A stretch of 64,000 nt of DNA, from positions 62,001 through 126,000 of the forward strand of contig NZ_CAHJWJ010000006.1 of the NCBI RefSeq assembly GCF_903642285.1. The letters are read 5' to 3'. Source of the DNA: Sphingomonas bacterium (GTDB lineage: Bacteria > Pseudomonadota > Alphaproteobacteria > Sphingomonadales > Sphingomonadaceae). The first letter of the stretch is position 1; each line of letters starts with the position of its first letter. The position numbers and the translations under genes were made by a program. Shown one piece after another: positions 8,021 to 57,722 of this stretch. Below the pieces are notes generated by a model that saw nothing but the letters and a program-made list of their open reading frames with translations, did not search any database and was not told the origin of the DNA.

Positions 8021-8293
8021 TCAGGCCAGCGCCTTGGACGCGGCGAAGGCGGTCAGCGCACCGAACGTCTCCAGCATCTCGCCGTCCACCTCGTCGTCGT
8101 CAATGACGATGCCGAGCCGGTCCTCCAGCTCGGTCAGCACGCCGGCCACCGCCATCGAGTCGAGTTCGGGCAGCGCGCCGAACAACGGCGTTTCCGGATC
8201 AAAGGCGGCGACTCGCTCGGACGACAAGCCGAGAATATCCGCGAGCACCGCGCGCACCGTTTCGTCGACCAGTGTCTTGCCTTCGGGGATCAC
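8021..8293 (-). CDS. acyl carrier protein, exosortase A locus
   Basis: 90 aa phosphopantetheine carrier. The attachment motif is LDSM in GALPELDSMAVAGVLTELED, where the serine would carry 4'-phosphopantetheine. The rest is acidic and helical, as expected. The GTG at 8293 is the chosen start (VIPEGKTLVDETV...). It is divergent from the acyl ligase gene with 70 bp between them. The context suggests that the ligase loads this carrier and the two hydrolases act on the product; this is inference from gene order. Confidence 0.85.
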   Translation of the reverse strand: MIPEGKTLVDETVRAVLADILGLSSERVAAFDPETPLFGALPELDSMAVAGVLTELEDRLGIVIDDDEVDGEMLETFGALTAFAASKALA

Positions 8294-8363
8294 GCCGCCT
8301 CGCCTTCGTAGCCAAACGCCGCCCGTTAGAGCGCGGGGGTGAATTCGGCAACGGCTTGGCGCT

Positions 8364-9980
8364 ATGAGGGGCGCGATGATCGCGCTCGATCCCTTGCCCC
8401 GGCCGCTCGACCACCTGCCGACGTGCGGGTGCGCGGACGACGTCGCGCTGGTCGACCGGGCGGGGACGATGACCTTCGCGGCGCTGGAAGAGGCGGTCGG
8501 CGCGGTGGCATACTGGCTGTCGCGGCAGGGGCTGGCGGCGGGCGACCGGGTGGCGACGTGGCTGCCCAAGACGCGGATGGCGTGCATCATGCCGCTGGCG
8601 GCGGCGCGCGCGGGGCTGGTGCATGTCCCGATCAACCCGCTGCTCCGCCGCGCGCAAGTCACGCATATCCTCGGCGACAGCGGCGCGCGGTTGCTGGTGA
8701 CGCAGGGTGCGCGCGCGGGCACGCTGGAGGCCGGCGATCTTCCGATCGAGTGTCAGCTGGTCGACGAGTCCGAGTTATCTCCTCCCCGGCGAAGGCCGGG
8801 GCCCAATTGGGGGCGCGTTGATGACGATGCGCTGCTGCCAATACCCTTCGACCCAATTGGGCCCCGGCCTGCGCCGGGGAGGAGAACTGACGAATACCTC
8901 TCCCCTTCCGACGCCCACCCCGACACCCTCGCCGCGATCCTCTACACCTCCGGTTCCACCGGCCGGCCCAAGGGCGTGATGCTCAGCCACGCGAACCTCT
9001 GGCTTGGTGCCATATCGGTCGCGCACTATCTTCGGCTGGCACCGGCCGACCGGGTCCTCGGCGTCCTCCCGCTCAGCTTCGACTATGGCCAGAACCAGTT
9101 GTTCTCGGCCTGGGCGGCGGGGGCGTCGGTCGCGCCGATCGACTATCTGGTGCCGCGCGACGTGGTGAAGGCGGTCGAGCGGTTCGAGGCGACGACGCTC
9201 GCCGGGGTGCCGCCGCTGTGGATGCAGCTGCTGGAGGTCGATTGGCCGGCGCAAACCGCGGCGCGGCTACGGCGGCTGACCAATTCTGGCGGTGCGCTGA
9301 CTCCGCGACTGGTGCGCGGGTTGGGGGCGCAATTCCCGGGTGCGGACATCGTCGCGATGTACGGGCTGACCGAGGCGTTCCGGTCGACATGGCTGGACCC
9401 CGCGCTGATCGACGCGCATCCCGATGCGATGGGCAGAGCGATCCCCTTCGCCGAGGTGATGGTCGTCGCCCCGGACGGTACGCGCGCCGCGCCCGGCGTG
9501 GCGGGGGAGCTCGTCCACGCCGGGCCGCTCGTCGCGCAGGGCTATTGGCGCGATGCCGAACGGACCGCGCTGCGTTTCCGCGCCGCGCCCGATTTCGCCG
9601 TCTCGACCGGTTTGGCGGTATGGTCGGGCGATACCGTGATCGAGGGCACGGACGGGCTGCTGCGATTTGTAGGGCGCGATGACGAGATGATCAAATCCGC
9701 GGGCAATCGGATCAGCCCGGGCGAGATCGAAGAGGCGGTGATGGCGGGCGGCGAGGCCCGCGAGGCGGTGGCGGTCGGTGTTCCCGACGATCGGCTGGGA
9801 CAGGCGATCGTCGTCGTCGCGGCCGGCGATGCGGCGAACGAACCGGCGCTGCGTACCCGGCTGAAGGCGCTGCTGCCCAGTTTCATGCAACCCGCGCGCT
9901 ATGAATGGCGTGCCGGACTGCCGCGCAACGCGAACGGGAAGCTCGATCGCGCGGGCGTTCGGGCGGCAGTGACGTCATGA
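8364..9980 (+). CDS. AMP-forming acyl ligase, exosortase A system-associated, with in-frame repeat insertion
   Basis: 538 aa member of the ANL superfamily, activating a carboxylic acid as acyl-AMP and passing it to a thiol. The P-loop YTSGSTGRPKG is at about 194-204, YGLTEAFRSTW lies mid-protein, and the C-terminal domain has GRDDEMIKSAGNRISPGEIE and the catalytic lysine in NANGKLDR. Residues about 139-174, just before the P-loop, are encoded by a palindromic repeat (8779-8884) and read as Pro/Arg-rich sequence. The frame is unbroken. An internal ATG at 8376 is an alternative start. Its TGA overlaps the next ATG. Confidence 0.88.
   Translation: MRGAMIALDPLPRPLDHLPTCGCADDVALVDRAGTMTFAALEEAVGAVAYWLSRQGLAAGDRVATWLPKTRMACIMPLAAARAGLVHVPINPLLRRAQVTHILGDSGARLLVTQGARAGTLEAGDLPIECQLVDESELSPPRRRPGPNWGRVDDDALLPIPFDPIGPRPAPGRRTDEYLSPSDAHPDTLAAILYTSGSTGRPKGVMLSHANLWLGAISVAHYLRLAPADRVLGVLPLSFDYGQNQLFSAWAAGASVAPIDYLVPRDVVKAVERFEATTLAGVPPLWMQLLEVDWPAQTAARLRRLTNSGGALTPRLVRGLGAQFPGADIVAMYGLTEAFRSTWLDPALIDAHPDAMGRAIPFAEVMVVAPDGTRAAPGVAGELVHAGPLVAQGYWRDAERTALRFRAAPDFAVSTGLAVWSGDTVIEGTDGLLRFVGRDDEMIKSAGNRISPGEIEEAVMAGGEAREAVAVGVPDDRLGQAIVVVAAGDAANEPALRTRLKALLPSFMQPARYEWRAGLPRNANGKLDRAGVRAAVTS
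8779..8884. repeat. palindromic repeat inside the acyl ligase gene (CCCCGGCGAAGGCCGGGG type)
   Basis: 106-bp element with 32-bp arms at 8779-8810 and 8853-8884 that match at 31 of 32 positions. Each arm is itself a hairpin (CCCCGGC-GAAG-GCCGGGG), followed or preceded by CCCAATTGG. It is the same family as the intergenic copies near 42.8, 44.0, 45.8 and 46.0 kb, yet lies wholly within a coding frame. Confidence 0.93.
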
Positions 9981-23913: not shown

Positions 23914-23917
23914 TCGT

Positions 23918-24004
23918 CCGTCATGCCGGGCTCATCCCAACATCCAGTGCCGCGATCGTCGCGCTGCGTGGCTCTGGACCCCCGGCACGAGGCGGCGGTG
24001 ACGG
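23918..24004. repeat. palindromic repeat between convergent genes
   Basis: The left half CCGTCATGCCGGGCTCATCC (arm 23918-23947) is answered by CTGGACCCCCGGCAC...GGTGACGG (23974-24004). It belongs to the CCGGGGTCCAG/ATGCCGGG family also seen at 56.0 and 57.6 kb. It fills the gap between the amidotransferase and yihA, which converge here, so it may act as a terminator. Confidence 0.75.
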
Positions 24005-31759: not shown

Positions 31760-32590
31760 TTACCAGAAGATGCCGTACGCTGCATCGACGACATAACCGC
31801 TGCGGACATCGACCAGCAGCGCGTCGTTATAATAGCGGACCCAGCGATAGGGGCCGTAGGCCGGTGGCAGGCGGTAGGTATACGGGTTCCCGATCCAGTA
31901 ATTCTGGCCGTAGAAGCCGTAGCCGAGCGTGATGCCGACCGAATAGCGGCGATAGCCGTAACCGCCGCCGGGCGCGTAATAGCGCGGCAGGTGGAACGCA
32001 CCGCGGTTCTGCGCACGGTAGCCGTTCCAGTCGTAGCGGCGGTCGCCATGCCAGCCATTGTTCCAGCCGCCGCGGCTCTGAGCACCGCGCCCATCCTGGT
32101 ATCCGCGGCCATCATTGCCGCGGCCGGCATAGCCGCCCTGTCCGCCCGGCGCGTTCGGGCCGAAATTCGGTCGTCCCTGATCGCCGCGCCCGGTATAGCC
32201 GCGCTGGCCGTCCGGTCCGCCGTTCGGGCGCTGGCCCTGCTGGTACTGGCCCTGCTGGTACTGGCCCTGCCGGTACTGGCCCTGCTGATATTGGCCTTGC
32301 CGATATTGGGCCTGTCCGTTCTGGCCCTGGCGGTATTGGTTTTGCTGTGGCTGGCCCTGTTGCGGCTGACCCTGCGGTTGCCGGCCCTGCTGCGGCTGCT
32401 GGCCCTGGGCTTGCGGACGCGGCTGCTGCTGTTGGTGCTGCGCGCGATAGGCGTCGCGCCGGGCCTGATCGCCGCGCTGTCCATCGACCTGTACGTCGCC
32501 GCGGGCCTCGACGTTCGCCTGCTGCGCGCCGGCGATCGCCGGCGCGAATGCGGCGGCGGCGAGCAGAAGCCCGATGACTGGTTTGACCAT
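31760..32590 (-). CDS. RcnB-like secreted protein with Gln-rich repeat
   Basis: 276 aa. The signal peptide is MVKPVIGLLLAAAAFAPAIAGA. A low-complexity segment follows with repeated QYRQG / QYQQGQ units (about residues 55-120), then a Gly/Arg/Asn-rich stretch. The C terminus LPPAYGPYRWVRYYNDALLVDVRSG...YGIFW matches the RcnB domain, known from a periplasmic protein of Ni/Co homeostasis. No metal transporter is adjacent, so a metal role is only suggested. Confidence 0.78.
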   Translation of the reverse strand: MVKPVIGLLLAAAAFAPAIAGAQQANVEARGDVQVDGQRGDQARRDAYRAQHQQQQPRPQAQGQQPQQGRQPQGQPQQGQPQQNQYRQGQNGQAQYRQGQYQQGQYRQGQYQQGQYQQGQRPNGGPDGQRGYTGRGDQGRPNFGPNAPGGQGGYAGRGNDGRGYQDGRGAQSRGGWNNGWHGDRRYDWNGYRAQNRGAFHLPRYYAPGGGYGYRRYSVGITLGYGFYGQNYWIGNPYTYRLPPAYGPYRWVRYYNDALLVDVRSGYVVDAAYGIFW

Positions 32591-42805: not shown

Positions 42806-42914
42806 GCCCACCCCGGCGAAGGCCGGGGCCCAGCTGCGATGGTCTTCGTAACTGAGCGCATCGCGCCGTCACGATCGTTCCGCAACCGGGCCCCGGCCTT
42901 CGCCGGGGTGGGGC
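42806..42914. repeat. palindromic repeat between SPFH and NfeD genes
   Basis: Paired hairpin arms: CACCCCGGCGAAGGCCGGGG near 42809 and its complement (CCCCGGCCTTCGCCGGGG) ending near 42909, with about 55 nt between. It lies in the spacer of a co-directional gene pair, so the transcript would contain it. It leaves the NfeD gene without a visible Shine-Dalgarno. Confidence 0.92.
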
Positions 42915-43961: not shown

Positions 43962-45677
<1,716 letters not shown>

Positions 45678-45789: not shown

Positions 45790-45893
45790 GCCACCCCGGC
45801 GAACGCCGGGGCCCAGTTGCAGGGCACTTGCGGTGGCGCGATGCCCTTTCTTCGACGACGATGGCAACTGGGCCCCGGCCTTCGCCGGGGTGG
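45790..45893. repeat. palindromic repeat, first of two after guaB
   Basis: GCCACCCCGGCGAACGCCGG at 45790 pairs with CAACTGGGCCCCGGCCTTCG...GGTGG ending at 45893. It belongs to the same family as the copies at 42.8 and 44.0 kb, with a single loop-proximal change (GAAC for GAAG). Confidence 0.9.
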
Positions 45894-45959
45894 AGGACCT
45901 GTGTCCGAACGAACGGCCACGCGAGCAACGATGTTTGCGCCGATCCCAAGCATCTATCC

Positions 45960-46064
45960 CCACCCCGGCGAAGGCCGGGGCCCAGTTTCAAGGCAGTTGC
46001 GAAGGCGGGATGGTCGCTCATCGACCACCGTGGCAACTGGTCCGCGGCCTGCGCCGGGGAGGTG
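45960..46064. repeat. palindromic repeat, second of two after guaB
   Basis: CCACCCCGGCGAAGGCCGGG at 45960 is mirrored by CAACTGGTCCGCGGCCTGCG...GGAGGTG ending at 46064. The right arm is more diverged than in the other copies. It ends 55 bp before the RsmB-like gene. Confidence 0.88.
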
Positions 46065-46118
46065 TGAAGGGGTCGGCGGAATTTCGCGCACCACCATAAC
46101 CTTTGTAAACTTAGCCGC

Positions 46119-55978: not shown

Positions 55979-56011
55979 TCCCAGCCGCTCCGTCACGCCG
56001 TCCGACCGTCT

Positions 56012-56097
56012 CCGTCACCCCGGCCTCGTGCCGGGGTCCAGCGCCAAGCGCGGTGTCGTTCGTGGCCCTGGATGCCGGGACGAGCCCGGCATGACGG
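56012..56097. repeat. palindromic repeat forming the 3' end of a CDS
   Basis: CCGTCACCCCGGCCTCGTGC at 56012 (arm continuing CGGGGTCCAG) is mirrored by CTGGATGCCGGGACGAGCCC...ATGACGG ending at 56097. It lies 34 bp beyond ndk and overlaps the last 28 codons of the membrane-protein gene on the minus strand, supplying its stop. Confidence 0.85.
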
Positions 56098-56707
56098 ACA
56101 CGAGGGTGTCGCTATTTCGGGCGAGCTTCCACAGCGCATCGAGCGCCGCCTGCGAGCCCCCCGCCGCGCGCGACCGGAACCCGGTGATCGTCAGCGCCCG
56201 ACCGCGCAGGAACCGGCCGCGGGTCCGCCAGACGATGTCGTAGATACCGGTCTTCGCGCGCTGCGCATCGCCGTCGCCGTAGGTATAGCTGATCAGGATC
56301 GGCAACCGCCCGACCTGGTCGCCACCCTTGCCGGCAATGGCGTCGAGCAACGGCCGCTCGAACCAGTCACGATCGATCGTCTGATCCACCGTATCCTTCG
56401 CGCCGATCGCAAGCGGGGTCGGGAAGGCGACGCGCACATCGCGCAGTTCGTGACGCTCGTCGCGCAGCAGCGCGATCGAATCGCCGCCGTGCGATACCAG
56501 CCCGCGAAGCTCGAAACGGCCCTTTTCCTGTGCCGTCGCCGCTTCAGCCTGCGTCCGCGCGTGATCGTCCGTGCGGTGATCGGACCACGTCGTATAGAGC
56601 GACAGCGCGCCGATCAGGACGCCGACGACGGCGACCACTTCGGCCAAGGATACCCAGCGGCGGCGCGTCCGTGCGGCCTCGGCGCGTTCGGCGGACGTGT
56701 CGGTCAT
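56015..56707 (-). CDS. single-pass membrane protein of unknown function
   Basis: 230 aa from the ATG at 56707. A charged cytoplasmic start (MTDTSAERAEAARTRRRW) leads to one membrane helix at about 18-40 (SLAEVVAVVGVLIGALSLYT) and an extracytoplasmic beta-rich domain (RFELRGLVSHGGDSIALL). The last 28 residues (SVMPGSSRHPGPRTTPRLAL...) come from a palindromic repeat, so the native end was probably near LWKLARNS. The ATG overlaps the YjbR-like stop. Confidence 0.75.
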   Translation of the reverse strand: MTDTSAERAEAARTRRRWVSLAEVVAVVGVLIGALSLYTTWSDHRTDDHARTQAEAATAQEKGRFELRGLVSHGGDSIALLRDERHELRDVRVAFPTPLAIGAKDTVDQTIDRDWFERPLLDAIAGKGGDQVGRLPILISYTYGDGDAQRAKTGIYDIVWRTRGRFLRGRALTITGFRSRAAGGSQAALDALWKLARNSDTLVSVMPGSSRHPGPRTTPRLALDPGTRPG

Positions 56708-57081: not shown

Positions 57082-57635
57082 CGTGCGACGAATGCTGACA
57101 GAATGCGCGGATAAAGGCCATGCTCCGCAGCAAGCACGCGCGCGGCGAGCGTATCGGGGGTGTCGTCGGGCTCGATCGGGACCTCGCCTTGCCCGAGCAC
57201 GTCGCCGCCATCCAGTTCCTCGGTGACGATATGGACCGAACAACCGGCGATGGCATCGCCTGCCGCGATGGCGCGCGCATGCGTGTCGAGGCCCTTGTAT
57301 TTCGGCAGCAGGGAGGGATGGATGTTGACGATCCTGCCGCGCCAGCGTCCGACGAACGCATCGGACAACAGCCGCATATAGCCCGCGAGCGCGATGATCT
57401 CGACACCCGCTTCGCGCAGTGCGTCTTCCAGCGCGCGTTCGTACGCGGCCTTGCCGATCCCTTTGGGCGACAGCGCGAAGGTCGCGATGCCGCGCCCGCG
57501 TGCCCAGGCGAGGCCGGCGGCGGCGGGCTTGTCCGATGCGACCATGGCGACGGTATAGCCGTGCGCCTGCTCGACGAGCGCCATCATGTTCGATCCGCGA
57601 CCCGAAAGGAGGATGCCGACCTTACACTCCGTCAT
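57078..57635 (-). CDS. purN: phosphoribosylglycinamide formyltransferase
   Basis: 185 aa. It transfers formyl from 10-formyl-THF to GAR in purine synthesis. GILLSGRGSNM binds the phosphoribosyl group. NIHPSLLPKYKGLDTHARAI and VTEELDGGDVLGQ carry the catalytic Asn, His and Asp. The start ATG (57635) lies inside a palindromic repeat (GGCATGACGG), and no Shine-Dalgarno is visible upstream, so initiation may rely on coupling to purM or be weak. Confidence 0.94.
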   Translation of the reverse strand: MTECKVGILLSGRGSNMMALVEQAHGYTVAMVASDKPAAAGLAWARGRGIATFALSPKGIGKAAYERALEDALREAGVEIIALAGYMRLLSDAFVGRWRGRIVNIHPSLLPKYKGLDTHARAIAAGDAIAGCSVHIVTEELDGGDVLGQGEVPIEPDDTPDTLAARVLAAEHGLYPRILSAFVAR

Positions 57636-57722
57636 GCCGGGCTTGTCCCGGCATCCAGAGCCAAGCAAACCAACGGGCATCGCCGCTTGCGACCCTGGAC
57701 CCCGGCACAAGGCCGGGGTGAC
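57629..57722. repeat. palindromic repeat filling the purM-purN spacer
   Basis: CCGTCATGCCGGGCTTGTCC at 57629 is mirrored by CTGGACCCCGGCACAAGGCC...GGTGAC ending at 57722. The left arm contains the purN ATG, and the right arm ends 12 bp from the purM stop. Confidence 0.93.

Follow-up and report, generated by a model that had tools for sequence, protein, structure and literature searches.

REP-like palindromes of three families in one coding linker of an exosortase-associated acyl-CoA ligase in Sphingomonas

How can a palindromic repeat that is abundant between genes lie within the reading frame of a conserved enzyme, and why at one particular place? The question is raised by a 64,000-nucleotide stretch of Sphingomonas DNA (the window), taken from a 3.05-Mb draft assembly of 54 contigs, in which an acyl-CoA ligase gene carries a 108-bp inverted repeat shortly before the codons of its P-loop (Table 1). 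Protein-coding palindromes are a known kind of element, found here in a new gene and a new genus. The new part is the reoccupation of one coding site by three palindrome families, which is unusual: a literature search, for which subscription papers lay mostly outside reach, found no description of a coding site that three palindrome families occupy one after another within a genus. Within the same scope, no paper on inserts in the XrtA acyl-CoA ligase was found, and the combination of exosortase, acyl-CoA ligase and Sphingomonas returned nothing.

Table 1. Coordinates of the ligase gene, its insert and the other family A dimers of the window
Feature	Position	Strand	Basis and remarks
XrtA/PEP-CTERM-associated acyl-CoA ligase (AMP-forming) gene, predicted	8376..9980	+	ORF uninterrupted by the insert; start at 8376 or 8364
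REP-like head-to-head dimer, family A, in frame	8778..8885	+	36 codons, residues 134-169 of 8379-9977
Left arm	8778..8811	+	Repeat search, 34 nt
Spacer between arms	8812..8851	+	40 nt
Right arm, inverted	8852..8885	-	Repeat search, 34 nt
YTSGSTG P-loop (A3 motif)	8943..8963	+	Read from translation; invariant in ligase alignments
Family A dimer outside coding frames	42807..42912		Repeat search, frame composition
Family A dimer, coding-like frame downstream only	44018..44126		18-20 open codons upstream
Family A dimer outside coding frames	45790..45894		Repeat search, frame composition
Family A dimer, second of tandem pair, outside coding frames	45959..46065		Repeat search, frame composition

The insert and its host enzyme

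The ligase matches profile TIGR03098 (acyl-CoA ligase, exosortase A system-associated) with an E value of 1.8e-178 and, insert included, a score of 594.2 bits, which exceeds the curated cut-off of 592.35 bits. Profile searches also recover its AMP-binding domains (PF00501 and PF13193) and, as conserved neighbours downstream, the associated decarboxylase (TIGR03099) and an export protein (TIGR03027). On the strength of these matches the ligase is assigned to the XrtA/PEP-CTERM exopolysaccharide system. Divergent to it lies a small minus-strand ORF (8021-8295), which we take to be acyl-carrier-like from its DSMA motif.

The two arms of the repeat are 97% complementary. Its first base coincides with a codon boundary in the frame counted from 8379, it occupies a whole number of codons without a stop, and 19 residues separate it from the YTSGSTG motif, whose tyrosine is residue 189. 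A preliminary description of this locus had reported an element at 8779-8884 with arms matching at 31 of 32 positions, about 20 residues ahead of the motif and in frame with the ligase; this is the same repeat trimmed by one base on each side, and the frame does remain open through the gene. The Pro/Arg-rich character ascribed to its translation is also borne out by residues 134-169. RNA spanning the repeat (8772-8891) is predicted to fold at -90.5 kcal/mol (z -11.66), a value that none of 200 shuffled sequences equalled.

An AlphaFold2 model built with 50 aligned ligases has a mean pLDDT of 90.2 and a pTM of 0.87, and the sole segment below a pLDDT of 50 comprises residues 139-169, nearly the whole insert. 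The insert is thus modelled as a floppy, disordered loop on an otherwise confident enzyme fold; whether the segment loops out had been the structural check proposed in the preliminary description. The rest of the enzyme, previously judged to look intact, retains all family motifs in the alignment.

Family A repeats and known palindromic elements

The half-site of this repeat family, CCCCGGCGAAGGCCGGGGCCCA, is matched 163 times in the 3.05-Mb genome at up to two mismatches, while the reversed control pattern is matched nowhere. Together with the strong RNA fold, these counts confirm that the repeat is a real element and not a chance palindrome. The pattern of a complete head-to-head dimer occurs at 37 places, with a core mostly of 95-100 bp and in one case of 84 bp. 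These dimers account for 74 of the 163 half-sites, and two of the window copies (45790-45894 and 45959-46065) are among the dimers that the pattern misses.

In the 37 aligned copies, 88.2% of cells pair across the arms. Changes on both sides of a pair are found in 47 cells, a number that none of 500 shuffles reaches (26.6 expected), and in 13 pairs, compared with 9.5 (5 of 500 as high), whereas the number of further pair types does not rise above shuffles (114 of 500). Because both-side changes exceed the shuffled expectation, family A copies behave as paired palindromes, chiefly flanking the fixed core; 18 of the 34 arm pairs are invariant, mostly because the search pattern fixed them.

Among the 37 dimers, the ligase copy is the only one crossed by a single open frame with 100 coding-like codons to either side (GC3 0.90 and 0.88). 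Under a laxer mark of 20 codons per side one further dimer qualifies (L225, 2713-2811, corresponding to about 44018-44126 of the window, with 20 codons upstream), and this copy probably sits just before a gene, since its coding-like frame lies downstream only. The ORFs that span other copies in the genome show out-of-frame composition, and a reading of many in-frame copies was accordingly discarded. The preliminary description had placed the same element between genes at four or more places in the window, and four further family A dimers are indeed present between 42807 and 46065, none of which is flanked on both sides by a single open frame of coding-like composition. Two of them form a tandem pair (45790-46065) whose members are 169 bp apart and 82% alike. 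Of 105 dimers in the one-contig genome G187, 15 were examined and none has a coding-like frame on both sides.

Several known systems share features with these repeats. The accessible text on the Rickettsia palindromic elements, RPE-1 to RPE-7 (Ogata and co-workers), gives them lengths of about 100-150 bp and places them both between genes and in genes. Those portions describe in-frame copies in many genes, at exposed places of the products, and report a gmk product with such an insert as active (PMC3767692, PMC2229807, PMC10969869). As far as that text goes, the ligase repeat is like these elements in being palindromic, in occurring both between genes and in frame, and in forming a predicted exposed segment in a host protein that is intact by sequence. 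It differs in that many genes are hit in Rickettsia, whereas here the ligase stands alone among the 37 dimers examined.

The CGTC REPs of alphaproteobacteria are described, in the part of the source available to us, as having a short stem, a loop of 4-5 nt and a CCA tail, as forming head-to-head dimers and as lacking a dedicated transposase, with intragenic copies in several species including the sphingomonads S. alaskensis and E. litoralis (PMC3733652). Family A is like the REPs so described in its dimers, its intragenic case and its unpaired CCA tail, since 68 of 74 arms finish on the inner side in NCCA. Its stem reads by eye as 7 bp (CCCCGGC/GCCGGGG) around GAAG, to be set beside the 8-9 bp stem and 4-5 nt loop of the super-family. 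Unlike those REPs, it has no CGTC tag at the outer end in any of the 74 arms. A second repeat type of the window, family C, has by eye the CGTC tag, an 8-bp stem, a 5-nt loop and the CCA tail, resembling CGTC-2 REPs as the available text presents them.

REPINs, which are mobilised by RAYT transposases, likewise consist of two inverted REPs that form one repeated unit of about 100 bp, an arrangement seen in all 37 dimers (core 84-100 bp). Unlike in REPIN systems, no Y1_Tnp (RAYT-type) gene was matched in this draft genome, which is 99.43% complete, in a search whose controls matched 5 of 14. Nor was one found in 25 of the 27 repeat-rich genomes tested, the only matches being in G134 (with stops) and G196. 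Altogether 4 of 40 genomes gave a match, and two of these are among the 13 genomes with no family A half-site, which indicates that the search works in this genus and that the gene occurs independently of the repeats. Mobilisation by a RAYT in this genome was therefore rejected. In the accessible portion of the work on CGTC REPs, these too are without an identified mobiliser (PMC3733652).

MITEs such as ERIC, RUP and Correia are small inverted repeats, some of which are described as lying in frame in genes (PMC2229807, PMC10969869, as far as available). Family A, a small inverted repeat with one copy in frame, is like the MITEs of these accounts, but lacks their target-site duplication: none of the 37 copies has a 2-9 nt flanking match outside the paired ends, where chance would give 1.3 at 2 nt. 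The GANTC motif of the CIR repeats of Caulobacter is present in only 2 of the 37 copies, and Rfam returned no match over the gathering score for 8600-9100.

Inserts at the same linker across the genus

The ligase gene was surveyed across the genus. It was found in 197 of 201 sampled genomes, and the linker was read in 130 of these, of which 18 have a long in-frame insert and 112 have none, one of the 112 being a deletion remnant. A search of 295 genomes with a carrier mark of E up to 1e-200, which proved to separate carriers, yielded 23 carriers, the 18 and five more, with 160 of the 295 ligases classed by score only and not by linker reading. All 23 inserts were read, and each is in frame and free of stops. 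The preliminary description had named an identical insert in every member of the family as a finding that would count against it, and this is not what is observed.

The inserts belong to three families, with four carriers of family A (the window's own ligase, L009 of genome G000, and L010, L011 and L013), 18 of family B and one of family C (L025); the palindromes of other families at this linker in other species had been missed in the preliminary description. Family B is about 77 bp long and has another stem (CCCCCGC-GAAG-GCGGGGG in the best copies), and the genomes that carry it at the linker contain it in many copies, G024 for instance with 124 half-sites. The family C insert has the layout given above for the second repeat type of the window. 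Its genome holds 158 family C half-sites (up to three mismatches) as against 31 of family A. At the same threshold the genome of the window has 45 family C half-sites, and family C-type palindromes are seen in the window at 23917-23982, 56011-56099 and 57628-57683.

Between anchors, the linker measures 53-63 residues in insert-free ligases (anchor found in 104 of 112) and 83-95 in anchored carriers. A wider comparison gives 54-64 residues for insert-free sphingomonads and 60-78 for distant ligases, so the linker varies in length anyway. Scores against TIGR03098 are 592.8 bits for an insert-free ligase (L030), 613.8 for a B carrier (L014) and 600.0 for the C carrier. The profile spans the B carrier end to end and splits on L030, as if the insert were native, but distant ligases fill the stretch with unrelated sequence, and this reading was rejected.

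Inserts are also lost. In L033 (G153) both ends of a B insert are kept around a deletion, with the gene in frame, a clear in-frame deletion remnant; by eye, the linkers of L037 and L027 may be deletion remnants as well.

For the 18 family B carriers (153 pairs), dN/dS comes to 0.50 within the insert, compared with 0.10 for the remainder of the gene; expressed as ratios of proportions, the 25 closest pairs give 0.62 and 0.14. The arms of these inserts pair at 16-24 of 26 positions. The insert peptide is therefore loosely constrained and the palindrome is decaying while the frame is kept; a ratio of 0.50, being below 1, means that the insert may be under some constraint, at the protein or the DNA level. 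Against the visible decay of the family B arms, the high arm identity of the insert in the window suggests youth, which makes the earlier proposal of a recent arrival conceivable. Its spacer, on the other hand, is nearer to the copies of another species (mean score 37.0 to those of G187) than to the copies found in its own genome (25.5).

Built without the linker, a DNA tree of 35 ligases requires at least seven changes among A, B, C and none, and at least four between insert and none. Closely related ligases can carry different families, as where L010 (A) pairs with L274 (B; support 99/93) and the two are joined by L011 (A; 96/83) and then L015 (B; 99/97). Just downstream of the insert, L274 has an identity of 0.91 to L015 and 0.71 to L010, and it is closer to L010 than to L015 in most other stretches, so this switch looks like local recombination between alleles. 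In a shuffle test on the tree, family B is clustered (17 of 500 as low) and family A is not (500 of 500). L009 groups with the C carrier in the DNA tree (84/93), unlike in the protein tree, which places it with L013 and on the side of the main clade. The two trees thus disagree on the attachment of L009 and L013 but both keep them outside the main clade.

Accounts of the occupied linker

The simplest account is tolerance in a flexible linker. In this account a non-autonomous palindromic REP-like dimer, abundant between genes, would have landed in the ligase linker before the P-loop, and the enzyme would have survived with a disordered 36-residue Pro/Arg-rich loop, because the frame was uninterrupted and the linker tolerant of length and exposed at the surface; the protein would be expressed and active with the loop in place. 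In other Sphingomonas species the same linker holds other palindrome families. After arrival the pairing of the arms erodes and the peptide diverges, being less constrained than the enzyme itself; an insert can disappear through in-frame deletion, and it would pass from one species to another when ligase alleles recombine. By analogy with Rickettsia palindromic elements and intragenic REPs, it is probable that the repeats are tolerated in this way in a length-variable surface linker. If tolerance is all, the locus would still be a clear case, away from Rickettsia, of a conserved enzyme that harbours palindromes.

However, different families at the same few codons, while repeats otherwise seem to avoid genes, are more than bare tolerance predicts. 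It is possible, if doubtful, that REP-type palindromes in Sphingomonas use the linker before the P-loop as a docking slot, with one family coming in, being exchanged for another on ligase alleles and vanishing again, perhaps with selection on an effect of the hairpin or loop on the enzyme. Were this so, arrival, conversion, decay and domestication as protein could be traced at a single coding position. This touches the questions of how REP-type repeats spread without an evident transposase and whether selfish palindromes are a source of new protein sequence. Both could be tested in this readily cultured genus, since a single coding position offers three families, copies that are decayed and others that are fresh, alleles with no insert and one deletion remnant.

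Beside tolerance of repeated arrivals, a single old insertion near the base of the group might have been overwritten in situ by whichever family was active, through conversion or recombination, with repeated losses, and what appear to be repeated arrivals would then be one arrival and turnover. The alternation of A and B among L010, L274, L011 and L015, the mosaic in L274, the outer bases TTCCC..GGGAA shared by A and B inserts in L011 and its relatives, the similar layout of these two families and the loss seen in L033 would all be in keeping with such a history. We nevertheless consider it unlikely. The family C insert differs in palindrome and loop, and no conversion by point changes leads to it from A or B. 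Insert-free ligases branch at the base of the main clade (L035 and L027; 100/99 and 100/97) and stand beside L009 and L025 (L028 and L036), which means that an old single insertion needs many losses. The spacers of L009 and L013 are also no nearer to that of L010 than random copies are, although this is weak evidence after such divergence.

Rather than merely tolerating repeats, the linker could be a preferred target of the machinery that moves them. Three families lie within a few codons at this linker, and most copies examined elsewhere are outside genes. In Xanthomonas, the recB genes of two species are described as carrying different REPs at roughly one position (PMC3733652, accessible part), as here at one coding site in related species; that case, as described, concerns two species and one gene, whereas here there are 23 genomes, three families and a remnant. 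For Rickettsia and Wolbachia, the available text likewise treats insertion hot spots as still possible (PMC3767692). We think a true hot spot quite unlikely here, as neither a target sequence nor a duplication can be defined in the 37 copies, and survivorship alone could yield the pattern. Moreover, 30 of the sampled genomes have 100 or more family A half-sites; 17 of these have an insert and 13 are insert-free by the score criterion, and the remaining 171 (fewer than 100) include one carrier, that of family C; these are hand counts, and most carriers form one clade, so that the 30 genomes are not independent cases.

The palindrome might also have been recruited and kept by selection, its mRNA hairpin slowing translation before the P-loop or its loop tuning the enzyme. 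The predicted hairpin is strong (about -90 kcal/mol), the linkers of carriers fold at -74 to -136 kcal/mol compared with -45 to -66 in insert-free ligases, the dN/dS of the B insert is 0.50 and not 1, and the slot stays filled across the clade while families change. Yet these fold energies are confounded with length, the arms decay in many B carriers, L033 has lost its insert and keeps an open gene, and most species are insert-free, which together make recruitment improbable. Although draft assemblies can err at such repeats, and this one is in 54 contigs, a misassembly, frameshift or pseudogene is hardly credible, given in-frame inserts at the same place in 22 other assemblies, including the one-contig G187, the low dN/dS outside the insert among B carriers, and the conserved neighbours.

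Further variation was observed among the repeats of this genome. Three copies (L219, L242 and L248) form a sub-family of A whose outer ends read GTT..AAC and whose spacer differs. The window also contains, at 32219-32398, an array of 15-bp units (GCCCTGCTGGTACTG and variants), which is probably a repeat-rich coding stretch.
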